Source: Nitrospirota bacterium (GTDB lineage: Bacteria > Nitrospirota > Thermodesulfovibrionia > Thermodesulfovibrionales > Dissulfurispiraceae). Taken from it: a stretch of 52,438 nt of DNA. This document shows, piece after piece, positions 153 to 11,535 of the stretch (its first letter is position 1; each line of letters starts with the position of its first letter). The stretch covers positions 1 through 52,438 of the forward strand of contig JAMCVZ010000010.1 of NCBI GenBank assembly GCA_023476565.1, given 5' to 3'. A program made the position numbers and the translations under genes. The notes beneath the pieces are model-generated. The model was not told where the DNA came from. It did no database searches and saw only the letters and a list, made by a program, of their open reading frames with translations.

Positions 153-554
153 ATGTTAGAACTCATCAACAAAATGAAAGTCAGGGATGAGAGAGGTTTT
201 ACCCTCGTTGAACTGCTCATCGTTATTGCGATCATCGCGATCCTCGCAGCTATTGCGATACCCCAGTTCGCTGCTTACAGGCAGAGGGGTGTAAGGGCAA
301 GCATGCAGGCTGACGCAAGGAACTTAGCAACCTCTTTAGAGGCATTTTTTGCGGATAACCAGAGCTATACGACGTTCACCATCGGTGCCGGCTCAGCTAT
401 AACCGCTCCAGTAAGTGCAAAGGCAAGTGCAGGCAATTCCATCACTGTAACGGGAAGCACATCTACTTACACAATCTCAGCTATCAATTCCAATGGCGGC
501 TCAAGCTCAACCCAGTATACCATTGACAATACTGGGGCCACTGCTTGGCACTAA
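153..554 (+). CDS. pilA: Type IV pilin (major pilin-like, PilA family)
   Basis: Structural subunit of a type IV pilus, exported through the inner membrane and assembled in the periplasm. A 15-residue positively charged leader ends in Gly15, the prepilin peptidase site, followed by FTLVELLIVIAIIAIL with the conserved Glu5 of the mature protein. The mature chain is 118 residues with no cysteine, so the usual C-terminal disulfide loop is absent. The last 60 residues are very rich in Ser and Thr (23 of 60), which could be O-glycosylation sites. The start was chosen because AGGAGG lies 8 nt upstream; an internal Met8 could give a shorter leader. A GC-rich hairpin follows the stop and a membrane glycosyltransferase comes next. 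The family is certain; whether it is the major pilin or a minor pseudopilin cannot be told from sequence. Confidence 0.93.
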   Translation: MLELINKMKVRDERGFTLVELLIVIAIIAILAAIAIPQFAAYRQRGVRASMQADARNLATSLEAFFADNQSYTTFTIGAGSAITAPVSAKASAGNSITVTGSTSTYTISAINSNGGSSSTQYTIDNTGATAWH

Positions 555-569
555 GATTTAGTCATGCTC

Positions 570-589
570 AGGGCGGCTTGCGCCGCCCT
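570..589 (+). terminator. GC-rich hairpin after the pilin gene (terminator or attenuator)
   Basis: GGGCGGC (571-577) and GCCGCCC (582-588) pair perfectly around TTGC, extended by A570/T589. No run of T follows, only CCAGGTCTTTA. The position just after a highly expressed type of gene suggests partial termination or mRNA 3'-end protection. Confidence 0.5.
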
Positions 590-643
590 CCAGGTCTTTA
601 CGTCGAGAAATGCCTTGAGAATCAGCTATAGCACCCTTTATCA

Positions 644-2533
644 ATGAGCAGATACATCATCGTTTTCCTTTTTTCCTTCGCTGTCTTCCTTTCTCTCTTA
701 ACCCCAAATGTTAATTCCGGTGATGCGGGTGAGCTTGTTACAGCATCTTATTATATGGGTCTGGCCCATCCGTCCGGTTATCCTTTCTATTTGCTCATAG
801 GCAAACTGTTTACATTCCTGCCATTCGGCAATATGGCCTTCAGGGTTGCGCTCATATCCGCACTGTTCAGCTCTATCAACCTTATGCTTGTTTACTGGCT
901 GACATACAGGCTTACAGAAAACGAAGCCGCTTCTTTTTTCGCAGCAGCAACGCTCCTTGTATCATATTCTTACATGACGCAGTCCGTAATTGCCAAGTTT
1001 TATCCACTTAACCTCTTTATTGTTCTGCTCATATTCTCCATGTGGCTTCATGTATATCTCGACGGTTTCAAGGAATGGGCTCTGCTCATTACCGCCTTTC
1101 TCTTTGGATTGACCATGACCAACCACCATACGGGGATACTTATGGTCATCCCGGTACTCTTCGCCCTCCTTTTTTACAGAAGACATCTGACACTGAAACT
1201 TCTGGCCACCGCATGCTTCACTGCTGCCCTTGGATTTATCCTCTACAGTTATGCATTTATCCGGGCAGGAAGCGGGAGCTTTTTCACCACGTACAATGTA
1301 TATAATTTCCATGATTTCTATAAACTCCTGACCAGAGGCGATTATGGAGAAAAAAACAGCATTTCACTTGCTCTCTACATGTTCAGCAGCGTATCGAAAT
1401 ATTGGTATGCGGTTAAAAATTTCCTATCACTGATCACCAAAAGCTTCTCTGTTTATTCGTATCCTTTATTCTTCGTCGGCGCATATTATCTCTACAAAAA
1501 ATACTCCCGGCTCCTTCTTTTCATACTCATAAGTCTTTTTGCCTACGGTCCGCTTCTGGCGAAAATCAATACCTTTTTCATGGAAAACCTTTCGGAAAAG
1601 GATTACTATCTTTCAGGCCATCAATTCTATCTGCCCGCATTCTCTTTTTATGCCCTTTTCCTGGGAATAGGCCTCTGCCAGATACTCCTATGGCTCAAGC
1701 AAATGAGATTCACGATACTCAGCAAGGCCGTGCCGGCTATCATTATTATGCTGCCGATGATCTTCCTGATATCGAGGGCGACCGACAGCAATTACCGCAC
1801 TAATTATGTCCCCTACCAGGCCATCAAGGACACATTCTCCATCTTGCCGGTGAACAGCATTATTCTCTCTTATGGCGATGATGCGATATTTCAGGGCTGG
1901 TATATCAAACTCATCGGCCGGTACCGTGAGGACATCTGCCAGTCGGGCGCTGCCACGATCAAGGAGAGGGCATGGTTCTACCAAAGCTGCAAAAAAGAGA
2001 TTTATGGGGATATCTATCCGGAAGTATTCACTGGAAAGGTAAGTAAACTGGTACCTCTCATGATGAAAAACAGATTCTACGGGACGGATATGATAGACAG
2101 CAAGTTCCCTTATGAGTCATATCTGTACAGCAAACCTTTCTCTCTTGTGCATTTATATCTGCCGAAGAGAAAGACCGTTGAAGAAATGCGGCTCAAGGGG
2201 GGTGATAATACAGCCGCCTTTAATAATAACTTGATGATTGCAGAAAAGATAGTTAATCCCTATCCCTGTCTTTCCCATTTTACTGATGATTGGCTTTCCA
2301 GGGGAATTTGCAACAGATATATTACTCATTACTCGGAGCTCGGGAGGCTTTACGGTGATGAGAAATATGGGAAAACGGGGAAAACGGTATCAGTGAGTTA
2401 TTTCGGCGCAGATGAAAAGCTGAAAGAGCTCTATACAGTCAAGGTGACTAATAAGAATTTGCCCTATTTTTCGCTGGCAACCCTTATCCAGGAGCACAAC
2501 AAATGGCCTCTTTACTACATAAGAGTAAAATAG
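644..2533 (+). CDS. DUF2723-family integral membrane glycosyltransferase (GT-C-like)
   Basis: A 629-residue multi-pass membrane protein of the DUF2723 family, related to GT-C transferases that use polyprenyl-phosphate sugars and act on the periplasmic face. The N-terminal block is typical: a first TM helix, then NSGDAGEL with the acidic residues placed where GT-C enzymes hold their catalytic Asp, followed by GLAHPSGYPFY and a run of TM helices to about residue 390. The C-terminal 240 residues are soluble. The acceptor is unknown. The preceding Ser/Thr-rich pilin and the polyprenol-phosphate sugar synthase 0.7 kb downstream make pilin or surface glycosylation a reasonable inference. No Shine-Dalgarno site is evident before the ATG. 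The 3' end overlaps the next gene by 31 nt. Confidence 0.8.
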   Translation: MSRYIIVFLFSFAVFLSLLTPNVNSGDAGELVTASYYMGLAHPSGYPFYLLIGKLFTFLPFGNMAFRVALISALFSSINLMLVYWLTYRLTENEAASFFAAATLLVSYSYMTQSVIAKFYPLNLFIVLLIFSMWLHVYLDGFKEWALLITAFLFGLTMTNHHTGILMVIPVLFALLFYRRHLTLKLLATACFTAALGFILYSYAFIRAGSGSFFTTYNVYNFHDFYKLLTRGDYGEKNSISLALYMFSSVSKYWYAVKNFLSLITKSFSVYSYPLFFVGAYYLYKKYSRLLLFILISLFAYGPLLAKINTFFMENLSEKDYYLSGHQFYLPAFSFYALFLGIGLCQILLWLKQMRFTILSKAVPAIIIMLPMIFLISRATDSNYRTNYVPYQAIKDTFSILPVNSIILSYGDDAIFQGWYIKLIGRYREDICQSGAATIKERAWFYQSCKKEIYGDIYPEVFTGKVSKLVPLMMKNRFYGTDMIDSKFPYESYLYSKPFSLVHLYLPKRKTVEEMRLKGGDNTAAFNNNLMIAEKIVNPYPCLSHFTDDWLSRGICNRYITHYSELGRLYGDEKYGKTGKTVSVSYFGADEKLKELYTVKVTNKNLPYFSLATLIQEHNKWPLYYIRVK

Positions 2534-3126
2534 CTGCATACATAGCAATTATGGTTGTCTCCATGCTTTCCATAATAGTCATGCGGCTATTATTCGACCA
2601 ATGGCAAAGCTACAACCAGGGAGTGAATAGCCTTAAAAAAGACAATTTTAAAGATGCCGTTATGTATTTCGATCATGTCCTCAATGCGCATGTTCCCTTC
2701 AGCCCCCTTGAGAGGAGGGCAAAAGAAAATCTGATGAATCTTGCAATGATGCTTGAGAACAAAAATGAGCATGAGCTTGCGCTCCTGTGTTATGAAACAA
2801 TACGGTCGTCCCGTTACCTGGCACGCCATTTTGTAGTTCCTGACGGCAGGGATATCCCGCTTCTGAATGATAGAATCGCATCTATCAAGGCACGGCTCCT
2901 CGTAAGAGATGGCATGGTAAGTGATTTTAAAAAAGGATACGAGCAGCAGATCGGGATAATGAAAAAGGATTTCTCTCCCTCCGTCGCCTGGTCTTTACTT
3001 GCCGTTGCCTCGTTGTTCATGTATATCGGGCTTGTTATAGTGTGGATTCTTAAAAAGAGATGGGTGTACTTTATCGGGCTCATATGTGCTTTTATTGTGT
3101 GGGCTGCGGCCCTTTATTTGGCATAA
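2503..3126 (+). CDS. Small membrane protein with TPR-like middle region
   Basis: A 207-residue protein I cannot assign to a named family. One TM helix lies at about residues 11-30, followed by a soluble helical stretch of about 120 residues whose spacing (YNQGVNSLKKDNFKDAVMYFDHV) resembles a tetratricopeptide repeat. Two TM helices close the protein. The gene overlaps the DUF2723 glycosyltransferase by 31 nt, so the two are probably co-translated and may work together at the inner membrane. Such overlap suggests an accessory or scaffold role, but this is inference only. Confidence 0.7.
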   Translation: MASLLHKSKIAAYIAIMVVSMLSIIVMRLLFDQWQSYNQGVNSLKKDNFKDAVMYFDHVLNAHVPFSPLERRAKENLMNLAMMLENKNEHELALLCYETIRSSRYLARHFVVPDGRDIPLLNDRIASIKARLLVRDGMVSDFKKGYEQQIGIMKKDFSPSVAWSLLAVASLFMYIGLVIVWILKKRWVYFIGLICAFIVWAAALYLA

Positions 3127-3165
3127 CAGGTGACCGGTGGCTATCCGAAGAAAGATAAAAGCATA

Positions 3166-3174
3166 TGGTATAAT
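3166..3174 (+). promoter_or_regulatory. Extended -10 promoter for the 3199-11535 operon
   Basis: TG-G-TATAAT is a perfect extended -10 element 24 nt before the first ATG of the long operon. No convincing -35 lies 16-18 nt upstream, as is usual for extended -10 promoters. A transcript would have a leader of about 18 nt containing AGAGG. Confidence 0.5.
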
Positions 3175-3198
3175 CTCCGTCAGAGGTAATATTTCTCT

Positions 3199-3930
3199 AT
3201 GGCGACCATGAAGACATTGGCAATCCTCCCCACATACAATGAGGCAAAAAATATTGATGCGATACTCTGCAAGCTCCTGGACTTCAGTTTTTTGAATGTC
3301 CTTGTTGTTGATGATAATTCAACCGATAAAACCAAAGAGATAGTCAGTAGTTTTTTTGATACCGGAAGAGTTCATATGCTTGAAAGACCTTCAAAACTCG
3401 GACTTGGCACCGCATATATTAAAGGCTTCCAATGGGGACTTCAAAGAGAATACGAATTATTTTTTGAAATGGATGCGGATAATTCGCACAACCCTGCAGC
3501 TGTCCCCTATTTCATAAAAAAAGTCGGGGAAGGCTGCGATATGGTGGTCGGCTCGAGATACATCAATAATACCATCAGTGTTGTCGGCTGGGATTTTAAA
3601 AGATTATTACTGTCCAAATTCGGCAACTGGTATGCATCTACACTGCTAAGACTTACACAGTTTACCGATTTAACAAGCGGCTATAGATGTTATACTAAAA
3701 GGGCGTTAGAGTTAATTGAGCTTGAGGGAATAAGGTCAAACGGCTATGCCTTTCAAATAGAAATGGTATATAAAATGCATAAGGCCGGTTTGAAGATTGC
3801 TGAAATCCCTATAATTTTCTACGAAAGAAACAGCGGAAGCTCTAAGATGAGCAAAAAAATTGTGAAGGAAGCTGTATTGTTACCGTTCAAGTTAACCATT
3901 GATGAAATAAAAAAAGGATTAGGATTTTAA
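3199..3930 (+). CDS. Polyprenol-phosphate mannosyl/glucosyltransferase (DPM1-like, GT2)
   Basis: A 243-residue soluble GT2 enzyme of the dolichol-phosphate mannose synthase type. It transfers a hexose from a nucleotide sugar to a polyprenyl phosphate at the cytoplasmic face, producing the lipid-linked donor that GT-C enzymes use in the periplasm. Visible motifs are LPTYNEAKNI near the N-terminus, VVDDNSTDKT at about residues 37-46, the metal-binding MDADNSH near residue 92, and VGSRY near residue 117. There is no C-terminal GtrA-like or paired TM domain, so it is the short DPM1 form. It is the first gene of a long operon. The sugar identity cannot be read from sequence. A DUF2723 GT-C enzyme upstream is a possible user of its product. 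Confidence 0.85.
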   Translation: MATMKTLAILPTYNEAKNIDAILCKLLDFSFLNVLVVDDNSTDKTKEIVSSFFDTGRVHMLERPSKLGLGTAYIKGFQWGLQREYELFFEMDADNSHNPAAVPYFIKKVGEGCDMVVGSRYINNTISVVGWDFKRLLLSKFGNWYASTLLRLTQFTDLTSGYRCYTKRALELIELEGIRSNGYAFQIEMVYKMHKAGLKIAEIPIIFYERNSGSSKMSKKIVKEAVLLPFKLTIDEIKKGLGF

Positions 3931-3975
3931 AATTCACGTTTTACAAAAAGTTCTTATGATGCAGTTTGCTAAAGT

Positions 3976-5379
3976 ATGAAAATTCTTTTAATCCATCCCA
4001 GAGAAAACATTTGGATAAGGTCAAAGACTGTTCCTTTAGGATTAGGTTATATTGCATCGGTTCTTGAAAAAGCTGGGCATAATGTGAAAATTATTGATTA
4101 TCGTATTTTCCCGGATCGGGAATTGGAAAAAGCTGATGTCGTTGGAATTACCGCTACAACACCCCTTATTCGAGGAGCATGGGAAATTGCAAGGGAAGCA
4201 AAAAAGAAATTTAACGCAATTACTGTACTCGGAGGACCTCATGTATCTGCATTACCGGAGGAATCAGCCAAGCTTCCATATATAGATTATGTTGTCAGAG
4301 GAGAGGGAGAAGACACAATAGTACAACTTTGCAGCATATTAGAACAAGGAAAGAGCGCAGAACAGGTTTTAGGAGTTTCATTTAAGAAAGATAACAAAAT
4401 TATACACCATCCTCACAGGGAATTTATAAAAAATATCGATGATATTCCTTTCCCTGCATATCATCTTTTCCCGCCTCTGGATAAGTACACAAATCCGCAA
4501 CCTCTTATTTCAGAAAGAACGCCGGCGGCGAATATAATGACCTCACGCGGTTGTCCTTTCGATTGTGTCTTTTGTTATAAAGGAGTTTATGGACGGCATT
4601 ACAGAGTCAGAAGCCCTGAAAATTTAATAGCAGAATGGAAATGGCTTATTGAAACTTACAATGTGAAAGAAATTGCGATACAGGATGATATGTTTAATAT
4701 TAAATTGGACAGGGCAAAGAACATTTGCAAGCTAATCATAAAAGAGAATCTTGCAATTCCATGGTCAACCCCAAATGGGATTAGAGCGGATTTTTTCGAC
4801 GAGGAACTTGCGGTTCTGATGAAAGAGGCTGGATGTTATCGTATTGCCTTTGGAATCGAATCTGGGAACCAGGATATTTTAAATTCCATTGGTAAAAAAA
4901 TAAAACTTGAGGACATAGAAAAAGCAATGAAAATCGCCAAAAAAGTTAATTTAAAAACGATAGGTTTTTTTGTGATGGGAAATCCTGGCGATACGGGGAA
5001 AACGCTTCAAGACTCAATTAATTTTGCGATAAAGGTTGACCCTGATTATGCACAATTTTCTGCTGCCACGCCGTTTCCGGGAACAAGGTTATATGAAATT
5101 ATAAGGGAGAAAGGCAAGATTTTGATAAAAGACTGGGATATATACAGTCAATTTGACAGGAAAAGTTACTTCGAATATGGATACATAAACAAGCAACTTG
5201 TCGAAAAAATGGTTAAAAAAGCTTACAAAAAATTTTACTTAAGACCTCAAAAACTTATAAAACTTATATTGGAAACTATTACCTTTAAAAATATATTCCA
5301 TGTGCTCGGCGGTGCACTTCATTTTATATTTGGATGGAAACATTCAAAAAAGATTGAAAATAGAAGGGGCAATGATTGA
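3976..5379 (+). CDS. B12-binding-domain radical SAM protein, copy 1
   Basis: A 467-residue radical SAM enzyme with an N-terminal Rossmann-like B12-binding domain (about residues 1-130) and a radical SAM barrel with the [4Fe-4S] motif CPFDCVFC at about residues 193-200. The B12 domain lacks the DxHxxG signature, so cobalamin, if bound, would not use that histidine. Such enzymes include methylases and ring-forming enzymes acting on lipids, peptides or antibiotics. The next gene is a paralogue with the same architecture and many identical motifs (SRGCPF, YKxVxGRH, RARSPENV or equivalents), so the pair arose by tandem duplication. It is AT-rich compared with the bamA block. The substrate is unknown. 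No clear Shine-Dalgarno site precedes the ATG. Confidence 0.85.
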   Translation: MKILLIHPRENIWIRSKTVPLGLGYIASVLEKAGHNVKIIDYRIFPDRELEKADVVGITATTPLIRGAWEIAREAKKKFNAITVLGGPHVSALPEESAKLPYIDYVVRGEGEDTIVQLCSILEQGKSAEQVLGVSFKKDNKIIHHPHREFIKNIDDIPFPAYHLFPPLDKYTNPQPLISERTPAANIMTSRGCPFDCVFCYKGVYGRHYRVRSPENLIAEWKWLIETYNVKEIAIQDDMFNIKLDRAKNICKLIIKENLAIPWSTPNGIRADFFDEELAVLMKEAGCYRIAFGIESGNQDILNSIGKKIKLEDIEKAMKIAKKVNLKTIGFFVMGNPGDTGKTLQDSINFAIKVDPDYAQFSAATPFPGTRLYEIIREKGKILIKDWDIYSQFDRKSYFEYGYINKQLVEKMVKKAYKKFYLRPQKLIKLILETITFKNIFHVLGGALHFIFGWKHSKKIENRRGND

Positions 5380-5428
5380 TAAAAAAACAACTCCCGGCTA
5401 ATATTTATGAATATGGACTTAGATTGAC

Positions 5429-6802
5429 ATGAAAATATTGCTTATAAGACCAACTCCGTGGAAATCCCTGTTCGGCGCTGAATCCTTCCTTCCATTAGGA
5501 ATAGCTTATATCGCATCGAGTCTGGAAGCGGCAGGACATAATGTTAAGGTTATCGACTTTACAGTGCAACCATACAACGATACCGAACTGATTTCCCTTA
5601 TAAAAAAGGAAAATCCAGATGTTGTGGGATTTAGCGCAGTTACGCCGACAGTCAAAAGCGCTTACAGAACCGCAAAAATCGTGAAAGAAAATATACATGC
5701 AAAAACAGTCATCGGCGGGCCGCATCCTACAGCTATGCCTGAAGAGCCGCTTTCAAACAATATCGACTTTGTAGTGCGGGGTGAAGGCGAATTTACAATT
5801 GTTGATTTGTGCAACCATATGAATAATCCTGCAATAGTTAAAGGAATATCATATGTTAAGGATAAAAATATCGTTCATAATCCTGATAGAGCGTACATAA
5901 AAGACCTTGACAGTCTGCCCTCCCCTGCAAGGCATTTATTTCCACCCCTAAAACTCTATAAGGGGCAGCCAGCTTTAGGCAACAGACTGCCTGTAGGCAA
6001 TATCATGACTTCAAGGGGATGCCCTTTTAACTGCACCTTCTGCTATAAAGCAGTATTTGGGAGGCATTTCCGCGCAAGAAGTCCTGAAAACGTCATGCAG
6101 GAATGGGAAGAGCTTATAAAAAAATATAAGGTAAAAGAAATTGCTATAGTCGATGATACGTTCACAACTAATGTTGACCGTGTATTCGAAATCTGCGAAC
6201 TGATATTAAAGAGAAATTTAGAAATCCCTTGGAGTTGCCCAAACGGGATTAGGGTTGATACCGTATCTTACGAATTATTAAAAAAAATGAACGAGGCGGG
6301 GTGTTACAGAATTGCTCTTGGAATAGAATCAGGCTCTCAAAAAATACTCGATACCATAGGGAAGAAGATAAGCATAAGACAAATAGAAGATGCGGTTTCT
6401 ATTGCCAAAAAGTCCAACATTGAGACAACAGCTTTCATGATGCTTGGAAATCTGGAAGAAACCGAGGAAACAATGGAGGAAACAATCCGCTTCTCAAAGA
6501 AAATTGAGCCTACTTATGTGCAATTCGTAATTGCTGTTCCGTATCCAGGCTCGTATTTATATGAGGAAGTCAAAAGAAATGGAAAAATATTTATAAATGA
6601 TTGGGATGAATACGGCCCATATGAAGGTAAACTTTGCTTCGAATATAAACATATCAATAAAGAACTGATAGACAGGATGTATAAAAAGGCTTATAAAGAA
6701 TACTATTTAAGGGTCAATTATATTCTAAAGCAGCTATTCAGCTTAAAAACATATACTTTTTTCACAAGAAGACTGAAGGCCTTCGTGCATTTTATAAAAT
6801 AG
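5429..6802 (+). CDS. B12-binding-domain radical SAM protein, copy 2
   Basis: A 457-residue paralogue of the preceding protein. The N-terminus (MKILLIRPTPWKSLFG) and the block LPLGIAYIASSLEAAGHNVK match it closely. The iron-sulfur motif CPFNCTFC lies at about residues 196-203 and is followed by YKAVFGRHF. The region VDDTFTTN replaces the QDDMFN of copy 1. The basic C-terminal 60 residues, with hydrophobic stretches, are shared by both copies and may bind membrane or lipid. Two diverged tandem copies suggest two successive or alternative reactions on related substrates. It lies 49 nt after copy 1 and 19 nt before a GT2 gene, clearly in the same operon. Its reaction is not known. Confidence 0.85.
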   Translation: MKILLIRPTPWKSLFGAESFLPLGIAYIASSLEAAGHNVKVIDFTVQPYNDTELISLIKKENPDVVGFSAVTPTVKSAYRTAKIVKENIHAKTVIGGPHPTAMPEEPLSNNIDFVVRGEGEFTIVDLCNHMNNPAIVKGISYVKDKNIVHNPDRAYIKDLDSLPSPARHLFPPLKLYKGQPALGNRLPVGNIMTSRGCPFNCTFCYKAVFGRHFRARSPENVMQEWEELIKKYKVKEIAIVDDTFTTNVDRVFEICELILKRNLEIPWSCPNGIRVDTVSYELLKKMNEAGCYRIALGIESGSQKILDTIGKKISIRQIEDAVSIAKKSNIETTAFMMLGNLEETEETMEETIRFSKKIEPTYVQFVIAVPYPGSYLYEEVKRNGKIFINDWDEYGPYEGKLCFEYKHINKELIDRMYKKAYKEYYLRVNYILKQLFSLKTYTFFTRRLKAFVHFIK

Positions 6803-6821
6803 TCTTTGAAGTAATTAAAAA

Positions 6822-7793
6822 ATGATACGAGATAATATTGCTTTAACATTCATAATCCCTCATAGAGAGACAGATACTATAGAGGAGACTGTAGTCTCCG
6901 TAAAGACGTCATGTGAAAAGGCAGGGATAGCCTGCGAGATATTTGCAGTATCGGGCAATAATCCTACCAAACAGAGGAATAAATGCATAGATATGGCTCG
7001 GAATGATTATATTTATTTTATAGATAACGATTCGATAGTGGTGCGTGAATCACTGGAAAAGTTTAAGGGGTTGATAAAAAAATATCCGAAGGTCTCCGTA
7101 ATAGGAGGCCCCGCAATTATCCATCCTCAAGATAATTATCTGCAAAAAAATTTTAATTCGGTTTTATCCTCACCATTGGCAGTCGGTAAAATCTCTTCAC
7201 GATATTCTAAAAGGGGCGGGGTGAGGGAAACGGATGATTCAGAGCTTATTCTATGCAATCTCATAGTCAAGAAAAGTATCTTTGATAAAGTGGGGAAACT
7301 GAATGAAAACCTGTATCCGAATGAAGAGAATGAATTTATTCACCGCGTCAAGTCTTTTGGAGAGAAAGTGTTATATGACCCTGAAATTTATGTTTTCAAG
7401 TCTCAAAGAGAAACATTCAAAGATTTTATAAACCAGATATTCAACTATGGAAGGGGAAGGGGAGAACAAACAAGGATTTCACCAAAAAGTTTTAAGCCGT
7501 TGATTTTGATTCCGGTTTTTTTCAGTTTATACCTGCCACTTTATTTAATATTAGGGATTTCCGGTAAAATAGATATATTTATTGTTTCTGCCCCTCTGTT
7601 TTTATATTTATTTACAGCTACTCTTTCGTGGTTTTCGCAGTGCTTGATGGATAAATATTTTTATTTATATTATCCCGCGATATTTCTCTTAACCGATGCT
7701 CTATACGGTTTTGGCTTTCTTTACGGTTTCTTTAAAAGAACCTTTAAAACCGCTAATATAGAGTTCTCATATAAAATTGAGAAGATAGAATGA
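6822..7793 (+). CDS. Membrane-anchored family 2 glycosyltransferase
   Basis: A 323-residue GT2 enzyme. The N-terminal catalytic domain has FIIPHRE near the start, a DxD-like YFIDNDS at about residues 64-70, GGPAI near residue 94, and the acidic NEENEF near residue 166 with the downstream YGRGRGEQ block typical of processive or polymer-type GT2 enzymes. About three TM segments occupy the last 100 residues, so the active site faces the cytoplasm at the membrane. The coding sequence is AT-rich. It ends 1 nt before the DUF362 gene. The sugar and acceptor are unknown; the operon context suggests a glycolipid or lipid-linked glycan. Confidence 0.82.
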   Translation: MIRDNIALTFIIPHRETDTIEETVVSVKTSCEKAGIACEIFAVSGNNPTKQRNKCIDMARNDYIYFIDNDSIVVRESLEKFKGLIKKYPKVSVIGGPAIIHPQDNYLQKNFNSVLSSPLAVGKISSRYSKRGGVRETDDSELILCNLIVKKSIFDKVGKLNENLYPNEENEFIHRVKSFGEKVLYDPEIYVFKSQRETFKDFINQIFNYGRGRGEQTRISPKSFKPLILIPVFFSLYLPLYLILGISGKIDIFIVSAPLFLYLFTATLSWFSQCLMDKYFYLYYPAIFLLTDALYGFGFLYGFFKRTFKTANIEFSYKIEKIE

Positions 7794-7794
7794 A

Positions 7795-8964
7795 ATGAAC
7801 AGAAATAAAGTTGCGGTTACTAAATGCACCTCATATAATACCGCTGAAGTAAGCTCTGCAATAAAAGATATTTTTGCTGCACATGGCGGTGTAAGAGCTT
7901 TATTTAAAAAAGGAGATAAAATTGCTGTCAAGGTAAATATCTTAAAAGCTTCTCATCCTGATAAGGCTATCATAACCCATCCGATGATCGTGTATGCTGT
8001 CTGCAAAGAGCTTGTTGAAAATGGGGTCAACCCTGTCATTGTCGAGAGCCCAGGCACAGGAACCCCCTACACCCCGGAATCATTAAGGAGTGTCTATAAA
8101 ACTTGCGGCTACTTTGATTTGTTCAAGAATCTGGATGTTGAATTTAATTACAATACTGATTACACGAATGTAAAAATTCCGTCCGGAAAAGTCATTAAGT
8201 ACCTGGATATTATAAATCCGATCCTTTCAGCAGACGGCATTATAAATATTGCAAAAGGGAAGACACACGGCTTTACCTATCTTACAGGGGCGGTTAAAAA
8301 TCTTTTCGGGACTATCCCGGGAATGTATAAAGCTGGGTATCACCTGAAACTGAAAGGCATAGGTAACTTTTCGGAAATGCTCGTTGATATTGCGCACTTT
8401 ATCAAGCCCCGGCTGTCTCTTATTGATGCAGTCGTCTGCATGGAAGGGAATGGCCCTGCAGATGGCCAGCCGAGAGAGGTCGGACATATCATAGCATCCG
8501 ACAGCCCTTTTGCAGCTGATTATGTTTTCTGTGATATGGTGGGACTGGATTACAGAAAAAATCCCGTCCTTTTAAAATCGGAAGAACGGGGATTTCTGAA
8601 TAGGGATAATATTATAGCCAACGGCAAGTATAATCGAATTACCGATTTTATCTTTCCCGATACTGCGGTAACAATGGACGGGTTTGTAAATCCTTCCTTT
8701 CTGTTTAAAACATATAAATTCCTTTTTAAGGATATGCTGACTCTAAAGCCTGTGATCAACAGGAACTGCGCCGGATGCGGCATTTGCAAGAAGAGCTGCC
8801 CGGCCTCCGCGATTACCTTAAGGGAAGGCAGTGCTGTTATCGATTACAACAAATGCATTCGATGCTACTGCTGCCATGAAATGTGCAATAACAGGGCAGT
8901 CGATTTTCACAGAGGCATCATGTACAAGATAAGTAAGAAACTATTATCAAAAAAACCGGAATAG
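7795..8964 (+). CDS. DUF362-domain protein with C-terminal 2[4Fe-4S] ferredoxin domain
   Basis: A 389-residue protein. Residues 1-310 are a DUF362 domain (KGDKIAVKVNIL, VIVESPGTGTP, INIAKGKTHGFTYLTGAVKNLFG, DAVVCMEGNGP). Residues 320-370 hold two ferredoxin motifs, CAGCGICKKSC followed by CP-type spacing and CIRCYCCHEMC, so two [4Fe-4S] clusters are expected. DUF362 proteins are uncharacterised as a class and often stand next to redox or radical SAM enzymes. Here it could deliver electrons to the four radical SAM proteins of this operon or catalyse a reduction itself; both are inference. The start overlaps nothing but follows the GT2 stop by one base, and the SPASM gene starts two bases after its stop. 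Confidence 0.87.
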   Translation: MNRNKVAVTKCTSYNTAEVSSAIKDIFAAHGGVRALFKKGDKIAVKVNILKASHPDKAIITHPMIVYAVCKELVENGVNPVIVESPGTGTPYTPESLRSVYKTCGYFDLFKNLDVEFNYNTDYTNVKIPSGKVIKYLDIINPILSADGIINIAKGKTHGFTYLTGAVKNLFGTIPGMYKAGYHLKLKGIGNFSEMLVDIAHFIKPRLSLIDAVVCMEGNGPADGQPREVGHIIASDSPFAADYVFCDMVGLDYRKNPVLLKSEERGFLNRDNIIANGKYNRITDFIFPDTAVTMDGFVNPSFLFKTYKFLFKDMLTLKPVINRNCAGCGICKKSCPASAITLREGSAVIDYNKCIRCYCCHEMCNNRAVDFHRGIMYKISKKLLSKKPE

Positions 8965-8966
8965 AT

Positions 8967-10046
8967 TTGTCATTACTGAATAAAATGCTGATGGGGGCTT
9001 CACTCCTTGATTCTAGAATAAGGGGAAGAAGGTTTCCGTTTATGGTAAATTGGGCGATCACAGGCAAGTGCAATCTGAAGTGCACGCATTGCTATGGAGA
9101 GTACGGAAGAGTCCAAAATGAAGAAGTTCCTCTCGATACAATCAAAAAAACCATTGATGCCCTGAGGGCAATGGGCACAAAGCGAATTACCATTGAGGGG
9201 GGCGAGCCCCTGGTCAGAAAAGATGCAGAGGAAATAATCAGCTATATATATGACCGGGGAATCGAGATGAGCCTCTGCACAAATGGAGTGCTTTTAGAGA
9301 GGCATGCAGGGTTCATCAAGGATAAGATCGACTTGCTGGTGTTGAGTCTGGAAGGATGTGAGGAGCATCATGATGCCTTGAGGGGGGCAGGCAATTTCTC
9401 GAAAGTACTAAATGCCATTGAAGTAGCAAAGAAACACAACATGCGCGCTCTCATTTTCACCTGCCTTATTGATGAAAACATCAATGATATAGATTTCCTT
9501 ATAGCTACTGCTCAAAAATATGCCGTCAATATAGCGTTCAATATAGGTGTTGCAAAGGTGGAGAAAGAGGGTGGTCGCGGGCAGCTCAACAAAGTTGCAG
9601 ATGATGATTACAAAGCTGCATTCTTGAAAATCTCAAATTACAAAAGAAACGGCGCCCCTGTATTCTACTCTGAAAGTAATTTTAAGCAAGTGTTAAACTG
9701 GCCGACTTTTGCCAAAGAGAAATTTTCCCCCGAGGACATATCCTGCATGGACGAGGGATTAAAAAAGACAATGATTCCTTGCTATGCGGGCGTCAATTAC
9801 TGTTATGTTGAATGCGATGGCAGTGTTTACCCATGCTATCAAACAGTCGGGATAATACAAGCCAAAAATATTGCAATTAATGGCTTCAAGGAATCCTTTG
9901 AGCATTTGTCGAATATCTCTTCCTGCAAACATTGCTATAATACTGCGCTATCTGAACTAAATCTGCAATGCAAGCTGGACCTCAGGTCTGTGCTTAAAGT
10001 AATTGCAAACTACCGTTCTACTCTGTCAGGAGGGGGTTCACATTAG
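8967..10046 (+). CDS. Radical SAM/SPASM-domain protein
   Basis: A 359-residue radical SAM protein with the canonical CNLKCTHC motif at about residues 32-39, EGGEP at about 78-82, and a C-terminal SPASM/Twitch-type cysteine set (CYAGVNYCYVECDGSVYPC, then SCKHC) able to hold auxiliary clusters. SPASM enzymes modify peptides, proteins or small molecules, and some act on lipids or cofactors. I found no short precursor-peptide ORF beside it, so a RiPP role is not supported. The open frame starts at TTG 8967 two bases after the DUF362 stop; ATG 8985 (residue 7) is an alternative. The 3' end overlaps the apparent ATT start of the next gene, suggesting translational coupling. Confidence 0.85.
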   Translation: MSLLNKMLMGASLLDSRIRGRRFPFMVNWAITGKCNLKCTHCYGEYGRVQNEEVPLDTIKKTIDALRAMGTKRITIEGGEPLVRKDAEEIISYIYDRGIEMSLCTNGVLLERHAGFIKDKIDLLVLSLEGCEEHHDALRGAGNFSKVLNAIEVAKKHNMRALIFTCLIDENINDIDFLIATAQKYAVNIAFNIGVAKVEKEGGRGQLNKVADDDYKAAFLKISNYKRNGAPVFYSESNFKQVLNWPTFAKEKFSPEDISCMDEGLKKTMIPCYAGVNYCYVECDGSVYPCYQTVGIIQAKNIAINGFKESFEHLSNISSCKHCYNTALSELNLQCKLDLRSVLKVIANYRSTLSGGGSH

Positions 10047-11535
10047 GGTCGCGATTATTTATCCCACCTTTTTCAAGGGCGGTAAGAGACCACTTTTAGG
10101 GCAGAACAGGCAGTTCCGCTATTCAAGCTCTCCTGAAGTCAAGATATATCCTCTTGTTCCGGCTTCAGCTGCAACGTCCGTATCACGGAAAGGGCATGAA
10201 GTCTTATGGCTTGATGGAATGAATGATATATCTCTTTCGGAAAGTTTCGAGAGCCGCCTTGTGGATTTCAGACCACAGATAATATTAATGGAAACCAAAG
10301 CGCCGCTTATCAAAAAGCATGTGCATTATACACGCCACCTCAAAGAGCTCATTCCGGATGTAAAAATTGTACTCTGCGGTGACCATGTAAGTTTTTTCCC
10401 GAAGGAGACCCTTGGCACCTCTTCGGCAGATTATGTCCTGGCTGGAGGCTTATATGATTTTACCTTTACCCACTTAGTGGAATTTCTGTCAGGAAAGCTC
10501 GGGTCATTACCCGGCGGCTGTTACTACAAGGACGGGGGCCAAATCAAAAGAACGGGTGAGCTTGATCCACACATTGATCTCGATGCTCTTCCCTTCATCG
10601 ATAGACACCTCACAAAATGGAACCTCTACGGAGAGGCGTATCTTAAAAAACCAGCCACCTACATATTATCCGGACGTGGCTGCTCAGGCGCTAAGGGGAT
10701 ATCTGTATGCTCGTTCTGTATCTGGCAACAAGCCCTCTGGCGTTTTAGCGCCCGCCTCAGATCCCCGGAGCATGTCGTTAAAGAGATAAAATATTTAGTA
10801 GAGGAATTAGGCGTAGTGGAAGTTTTTGATGATAACGAAAGCGGCCCGGTATGGGATATTAATTGGCTGAGGGAATTTTCCAGACTCCTAATGAAGGAGG
10901 GGCTCCGGAAAAGGGTATATATATCAACCAATGCAAGGGCTGACCTCTTAACGAAAGAGGTATGCAGACTCCTCAAAGAGTGCAATTTCAGGTTGCTCAA
11001 GGTCGGGATAGAAAGCGGATCAGAAAGGATTCTAAGGGAAGTTATCAATAAGAAAGAGGGCGTTGCGGATATTAAAAGGGGGATAAAAAACGCAAAGGAT
11101 TGCGGGCTTATTGTCCTCATGACCAATATGGTAGGATATCCCGAAGAAACAGAAGAAGAGGCAGAAGCGACCCTATCCATGGCCAGAGAACTCCTGCTTT
11201 ATAAGACGAGAGCCGGAGACTCCCTTCAAGCCAGTATTTTAGTCCCCTACCCCGGAACACTGTTATGGAAAAGGGCTATCAGGAACGGATGGCTCATGGA
11301 AGACCCTTACGACTATGAGAAATTTGACATGTCCCATATCCTCATTAAAAGCAATGTAGGCGATCCCCAGGAATGGTGCAATAGAATCTGGAGATTGCAT
11401 CTTCATCCGAAATTCATCTTCCGCTCGCTTATTACAGCACGCTCCTTTCGTGACCTTAATCTCCTCTGGACCGGCTTTAAATCCCTTTTAGGGCACTTGA
11501 AAGATTTCAGCAACAAAGGGAACTCCAACCACTAA
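10042..11535 (+). CDS. B12-binding-domain radical SAM protein with CX8CX2C cluster motif; apparent ATT start
   Basis: About 497 residues. The N-terminal part is a B12-binding-type Rossmann domain, followed by a radical SAM barrel. The cluster motif is GRGCSGAKGISVCSFC, spacing CX8CX2C instead of CX3CX2C; expanded spacings are known in some B12-type RiPP maturases. The best start is ATT at 10042: AGGAGGGGG ends about 5 nt upstream, the ATT overlaps the TAG stop of the SPASM gene, and the N-terminus then reads xRVAIIYPTFF, aligning with MKILLIRPTPW of the operon paralogues. The only upstream alternative, TTG 10003, would lie deep inside the previous gene and add 13 unconserved residues. It is the last gene of the operon. 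The substrate is unknown. Confidence 0.82.
   Translation: MRVAIIYPTFFKGGKRPLLGQNRQFRYSSSPEVKIYPLVPASAATSVSRKGHEVLWLDGMNDISLSESFESRLVDFRPQIILMETKAPLIKKHVHYTRHLKELIPDVKIVLCGDHVSFFPKETLGTSSADYVLAGGLYDFTFTHLVEFLSGKLGSLPGGCYYKDGGQIKRTGELDPHIDLDALPFIDRHLTKWNLYGEAYLKKPATYILSGRGCSGAKGISVCSFCIWQQALWRFSARLRSPEHVVKEIKYLVEELGVVEVFDDNESGPVWDINWLREFSRLLMKEGLRKRVYISTNARADLLTKEVCRLLKECNFRLLKVGIESGSERILREVINKKEGVADIKRGIKNAKDCGLIVLMTNMVGYPEETEEEAEATLSMARELLLYKTRAGDSLQASILVPYPGTLLWKRAIRNGWLMEDPYDYEKFDMSHILIKSNVGDPQEWCNRIWRLHLHPKFIFRSLITARSFRDLNLLWTGFKSLLGHLKDFSNKGNSNH

Follow-up and report, generated by a model that had tools for sequence, protein, structure and literature searches.

Radical S-adenosylmethionine genes beside a pilin/GT-C glycosyltransferase module in a Nitrospirota genome: a possible glycan-tailoring cassette

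Organization of the seven-gene set

The DNA analysed here, referred to as the window, is a stretch of 52,438 nucleotides (nt) from a Nitrospirota bacterium (contig JAMCVZ010000010.1, assembly GCA_023476565.1) and represents one entire contig of a 2.67-Mb genome of 73 contigs. An earlier note on this DNA had described seven genes, named here as g1 to g7, as an operon combining radical S-adenosylmethionine (rSAM) enzymes, two glycosyltransferases and a ferredoxin fusion. The open reading frame (ORF) list of the window bears out this arrangement, with all seven genes on the + strand between 3199 and 11535 and with gaps from g1 to g7 of 45, 49, 19, 1, 2 and −5 nt, in that order.

3199–3930, + strand: g1, predicted DPM1-like polyprenyl-phosphate hexose synthase (family 2 glycosyltransferase (GT2) catalytic domain, PF00535; nearest solved relative, dolichol-phosphate mannose synthase 5mlz, E = 4.7e-25)
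3976–5379, + strand: g2, B12-binding rSAM protein with a CX3CX2C motif (PF02310 and PF04055 above cut-off)
5429–6802, + strand: g3, B12-binding rSAM protein with a CX3CX2C motif, paralogue of g2 (PF02310 and PF04055 above cut-off)
6822–7793, + strand: g4, GT2 glycosyltransferase with C-terminal transmembrane (TM)-like segments (PF00535; homologues adjoin g7 homologues)
7795–8964, + strand: g5, DUF362 domain fused to a 2[4Fe-4S] ferredoxin (PF04015, E = 6.3e-54; Fer4 domains; invariant H158, K168 and H183)
8967–10046, + strand: g6, rSAM protein with a partial SPASM domain (PF04055; cysteine pattern)
10042–11535, + strand: g7, B12-type rSAM protein with a CX8CX2C motif and a probable ATT start (PF04055; start context; orthologue with the same motif; AprD4-like model)

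The predicted domain content was recovered for the GT2, B12-type rSAM and DUF362/4Fe-4S proteins, and only in part for the SPASM domain of g6. None of the genes reached the cut-off of an NCBIfam equivalog, in agreement with the earlier view that the set fits no nameable pathway. The −5 nt overlap between g6 and g7 needs a g7 start at ATT 10042, 8 nt beyond the AGGAGG at 10028–10033, and the ORF finder places the start at TTG 10003 instead. The ATT start is likely, judging from the aligned starts of homologues and the AGGAGG. ATT is a rare start codon, and in this case it overlaps the stop codon of g6 (window 10028–10046). The extended −10 promoter proposed 5′ of g1 does exist as a site (TGGTATAAT); however, sigma-70-like sites across the region were no more frequent than in shuffled sequences. 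A pathway for a ribosomally synthesized and post-translationally modified peptide was considered and rejected because none of the gaps from g1 to g7 exceeds 49 nt, too little to hold a precursor gene.

A pilin/GT-C module upstream of g1

The set had been taken as self-contained, which did not hold, as a pilin gene, a gene for a GT-C membrane glycosyltransferase and one for a small membrane protein sit just upstream.

153–554, + strand: pilA, type IV pilin (prepilin N-methylation domain above cut-off; composition)
555–643, + strand: region between pilA and the GT-C gene, holding a perfect GC-rich hairpin, GGGCGGC-TTGC-GCCGCCC (fold; comparison with six relatives)
644–2533, + strand: TMEM260-like GT-C membrane glycosyltransferase (PF11028, E = 1.4e-25, 90.5 bits against a gathering score of 24.2)
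2503–3126, + strand: small membrane protein with three TM-like segments (hydrophobicity; L099 and L100 encode a homologue, 28–30% identical, in the equivalent position; no Pfam match)

Serine and threonine make up 38% of PilA beyond mature residue 60. The hairpin between the pilin and GT-C genes, which has no clear U-run in the window, has GC-rich counterparts at the same place in six relatives. Homologues of the GT-C protein were found in 31 of 149 genomes of the order, this genome counted, and in none of the 17 other genomes of the same family in that sample; all 10 homologous proteins scanned matched PF11028. Upstream sequence was informative at 19 GT-C loci, which include close relatives and are therefore not independent events. 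A type IV pilin signature was present on the same strand directly upstream of the GT-C gene in 18 of them, the nearest signature lying 280–674 nt ahead of the GT-C start, whereas the background was 9 of 682 stretches of 1.5 kb (1.3%). This linkage suggests the TMEM260-like GT-C proteins as a candidate family of pilin O-glycosyltransferases. The open-access literature searched contained nothing on DUF2723/TMEM260 paired with a pilin, and the plasmids searched gave no GT-C match.

In G009 and G087 (L099/L100), whose assignment as Thermodesulfovibrio-like is inferred from synteny and sequence, a DPM1 protein 57–61% identical to g1 is encoded in the same locus as the pilin and the GT-C. Because a g1-like DPM1 accompanies the pilin/GT-C pair at these two loci, g1 is best assigned to the upstream module.

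Linkage of g4 and g7 and the fold of g7

The g7 protein matches PF04055, and its B12-binding domain scores 31.0 bits, just under the cut-off of 32.1. The expanded cluster motif noticed earlier in this third B12-type rSAM protein is CX8CX2C. It is shared by an orthologue, 62–63% identical, on a contig (L145) of a Planctomycetota metagenome-assembled genome (MAG), and more distant relatives have CX4CX2C. Relatives of g7 at E ≤ 1e-50 were found in 5 of 296 genomes of the phylum, including this one. A g4-like GT2 gene adjoins the g7 homologue in five other genomes of the phylum (G027, G067, G123, G166 and G172) and in L145, and some of these loci also hold genes for a flippase, a UDP-sugar enzyme or an aminotransferase, identified partly by reading the protein sequences.

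Such partners favour an alternative that deserves weight, although we regard it as doubtful, in which the target of g2–g7 is a free polysaccharide of the surface (O-antigen or exopolysaccharide) and the pilA, GT-C and DPM1 genes are mere neighbours in a variable glycan region. It would also account for lpxD and bamA lying directly downstream of the set within the window, and for the pilin/GT-C/DPM1 loci of G009 and G087, where the stretch read is free of rSAM genes. Against it, g1, tied to the pilin/GT-C module, is just 45 nt from g2, and the region 153–11535 contains no flippase, polymerase or chain-length gene.

A structural model of g7 (pLDDT 83, from an alignment of 17 sequences) matched AprD4, a 1,2-diol dehydratase, best (Z 30.4, root-mean-square deviation 3.0, 415 residues), followed by MgmA (26.9), OxsB (26.4) and TsrM. 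The model has the fold of these enzymes over both domains, whereas their identity to g7 is only 12–22% and the CX8CX2C motif is that of g7; the AprD4 NCBIfam profile gave 48 bits against a cut-off of 500. The structure prediction suggested earlier yielded an AprD4-like fold for g7, and a common fold does not fix the reaction. AprD4 dehydrates an aminosugar, and it has a B12-type rSAM fold but is not known to use cobalamin. Enzymes of the B12 type methylate or rearrange unactivated carbons, C-methylation being the commonest reaction.

Tandem paralogues g2 and g3 and the SPASM-type protein g6

The g2 and g3 proteins are 52% identical and paired as sisters, with a support of 0.99, in a small tree; the closest other proteins of the phylum sample are approximately 41% identical to them, and relatives on viral contigs only 23–35%. 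Their best NCBIfam profiles were HpnJ (230–234 bits, cut-off 578) and BchE (198–228 bits, cut-off 481), although g2 and g3 have no hopanoid or chlorophyll gene context. The identification of g2, g3 or g7 with HpnJ, BchE or AprD4 was rejected, as all scores fell far under the NCBIfam cut-offs.

The SPASM match of g6 (PF13186, E = 0.01, 16.5 bits) is below the cut-off of 21.5. The CX12GX4C half of the cysteine pattern is present and the CX2CX5CX3C half is absent, and g6 likely carries a single auxiliary cluster. B12-type rSAM genes were also found in five of the seven g6-homologue loci read, for which the chance probability is about 0.001, a rough figure with the density of such genes assumed. 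Pairs of SPASM and B12-type rSAM genes recur in glycan loci, together with DPM1-like or GT-C genes.

The modification of a hopanoid-like or ladderane-like membrane lipid or glycolipid by g2–g7, with g1 and g4 serving in lipid glycosylation, was weighed on the basis that g2, g3 and g7 all score best against the NCBIfam profile HpnJ, far below its cut-off in each case, and that relatives carry tandems of HpnH-like (DUF3463) and B12-type rSAM genes. We consider it unlikely: g6 has no DUF3463 match, no hopanoid or fatty-acid enzyme is encoded within 153–11535, and the recurrent partners of g4 and g7 are polysaccharide genes.

Three arrangements of rSAM genes were seen in passing. In three genomes, twice in one of them, an rSAM gene is paired in tandem with a g2/g3-like B12-type rSAM gene (L133:2704-5194, L134:7073-12212 and L135:7579-10074), and the one rSAM member scanned was HpnH-like (DUF3463). 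Alternating arrays of B12-type and SPASM-type rSAM genes lie between large membrane-protein genes in two genomes of different families (L044:3940-9155 and L048:4141-9383). Beside rSAM genes in three genomes lies a gene for a small membrane protein that carries an (F/V)xDIDHxxDY-like motif (L039:4648-5097, L043:8706-9191 and L045:9350-9832), and the two such proteins tested gave no Pfam match at 1e-3.

The DUF362/ferredoxin protein g5

Homologues of g5 are widespread, occurring in 80 of the 296 genomes of the phylum; in the four neighbourhoods that were read, no relative of the rSAM genes of the window was present. The 4Fe-4S domains assumed earlier to supply electrons are present, but DUF362 belongs to the same Pfam clan as LarA, CL0471 (PMC11770544), so g5 need not be a mere electron carrier. 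Residues H158, K168 and H183 are invariant across seven homologues, and their spacing, H158-X9-K168-X14-H183, resembles H174-X9-K184-X15-H200 of LarA1. In contrast to LarA, g5 is fused to a ferredoxin and lacks an obvious equivalent of R75, and it has no match to Lar_N (PF09861), for which a single homologue gave just E = 0.17. A single-sequence structure prediction of g5 had a pLDDT of 36, and the 60 best matches of the DUF362 profile against PDB were all Fe-S proteins. Genes for LarC and LarE are present in this genome, yet they are in almost all relatives as well. The likeness of g5 to LarA in these three residues is a lead only. Nothing on DUF362 together with radical SAM was found in the open-access literature searched.

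Base composition and the variable pilA–bamA interval

The low-GC stretch described earlier is real for g2 (0.364), g3 (0.386) and g4 (0.353), and g1 is likewise low, the four genes ranging from 0.35 to 0.39. The GC content then climbs to 0.42–0.43 in g5 and g6 and 0.46 in g7, against 0.51 for the 12–52 kb part of the window. A genome of the same genus shares the flanks (PilA, 64% over 74 amino acids; BamA, 79%), which argues against a chimeric contig, and there is no obvious sign that the low-GC block arose by misassembly. In that genome, bamA lies about 16 kb from the pilin gene and the interval is occupied by other glycan genes, including those for a GT2, a UbiA-type prenyltransferase, a methyltransferase and a TPR/PMT_2 protein. 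The pilin gene is near bamA in G081 too, with other genes in between, and G034, G024, G012, G054 and G064 have different genes ahead of bamA. By this comparison the pilA–bamA interval is variable, and g2–g7 appear as a variable, largely low-GC cassette inside it. Horizontal acquisition of g2–g7 is likely, as had been suspected, because of the low GC content, the patchy occurrence of homologues and the closest g7 relative being in a Planctomycetota MAG.

With g3, g5 and g7 as queries, no counterpart of the complete set was found in the 296 phylum genomes. A wider contig search, a scan that finds close relatives only, returned a single g7 orthologue, that of L145, whose contig measures just 5.8 kb. 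No second g7 was found in 154 genomes of the class of the Planctomycetota MAG and no g7 relative on viral contigs, and plasmids gave only relatives at ~26–32% identity. Conserved neighbourhood, named in advance as the check on the proposal and as its possible refutation, was therefore found for subsets and for the whole set in no second genome. On the sequences compared, conserved linkage appears limited to g4 with g7, SPASM with B12-type rSAM, and pilin with GT-C, joined by DPM1 in two loci. The proposal of one conserved seven-gene pathway was not upheld: no whole set was found, g1 goes with the upstream module and g5 homologues are unlinked to rSAM genes in the four neighbourhoods read.

These results raise the question of whether genes acquired separately have piled up by chance at a variable site without sharing a pathway. 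The GC gradient over g1–g7, the lack of a counterpart for the whole cluster and the generic g5 homologues, unlinked to rSAM genes in the neighbourhoods read, all speak for it. The tight gaps and overlaps, the intact frames and motifs and the recurring g4–g7 and SPASM/B12-type rSAM linkages speak against it, and we hold a pile-up to be very improbable.

Proposed function of the locus

Most likely, g2–g7 represent a cassette for tailoring a surface glycan, and the tailored glycan is plausibly lipid-linked and put on the pilin. The locus as a whole is tentatively read as a cassette for pilin-accessory glycosylation to which an rSAM tailoring module has been joined by horizontal transfer, an interpretation that we put first, though with reserve. 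It is favoured because of the pilin/GT-C linkage, the hairpins, the DPM1 genes of G009 and G087 and the glycan genes in the same-genus interval on one side, and because of the recurrence of g4 with g7 and of SPASM with B12-type rSAM genes, the aminosugar substrate of AprD4 and the short gaps on the other. Four observations weigh against it: the failure to find g2–g7 together in a second genome among those sampled, the general polysaccharide loci in which g4–g7 homologues occur elsewhere with no pilin gene seen, the lack of rSAM genes at the G009 and G087 loci, and the GC gradient, which suggests parts of differing origin. Of the earlier hypothesis, a polyprenyl-linked glycan remains plausible, but not as the product of one conserved seven-gene pathway.

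In the proposed pilin-glycosylation mechanism, the core would run from pilA through the hairpin, the TMEM260-like GT-C and the gene for the small membrane protein to g1. The g1 enzyme would put a sugar on polyprenyl phosphate, and the GT-C would transfer the lipid-linked sugar at the outer face of the inner membrane, with the Ser/Thr-rich pilin as the likeliest acceptor. The g2–g7 products would modify or lengthen a glycan of the cell surface, which is plausibly the one on the pilin, with g4 adding a sugar, g2 and g3 performing B12-dependent radical chemistry, and g6 and g7 carrying out further radical steps such as dehydration/deoxygenation or epimerisation. The g5 protein would be a low-potential electron source and may also act on the substrate via its LarA-clan domain. 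We infer a single glycan uniting the parts, the pilin as its acceptor, and every reaction named. The full scheme, in which pilin O-glycosylation by a GT-C fed with a polyprenyl-phosphate sugar is combined with reshaping of the glycan by all four rSAM enzymes and with a redox or epimerising action of g5 on the lipid-linked sugar, is rather unlikely to be right in all its parts.

The arrangement is reminiscent of the pilin-accessory cassettes of Pseudomonas, in which a glycosyltransferase gene follows the pilin gene immediately on its 3′ side and a terminator hairpin separates the two; TfpW of these cassettes is a GT-C arabinosyltransferase, and TfpO is also a cassette enzyme (PMC11841053). The likeness is one of arrangement, namely a same-strand glycosyltransferase gene 3′ of the pilin gene and the intervening hairpin, extending to the GT-C class in the case of TfpW. 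It differs in that the GT-C here is TMEM260-like (PF11028), DPM1 and rSAM genes are attached and the hairpin of the window lacks a clear U-run. The pilin glycans of Pseudomonas shield against pilus-specific phages (PMC11841053).

If the reading as a pilin-accessory cassette is true, the locus would decorate a surface appendage with radical-modified sugars, and it would offer a setting for the study of DUF362, a widespread domain to which no function has been assigned. To our knowledge, little has been established about rSAM enzymes whose substrates are surface or protein-linked glycans. The linkage of pilin and TMEM260-like GT-C genes (window 153–2533; L074–L093) may outweigh the seven-gene set of the earlier note as a finding, and its strength across the sampled order makes the bacterial role of this family directly testable.

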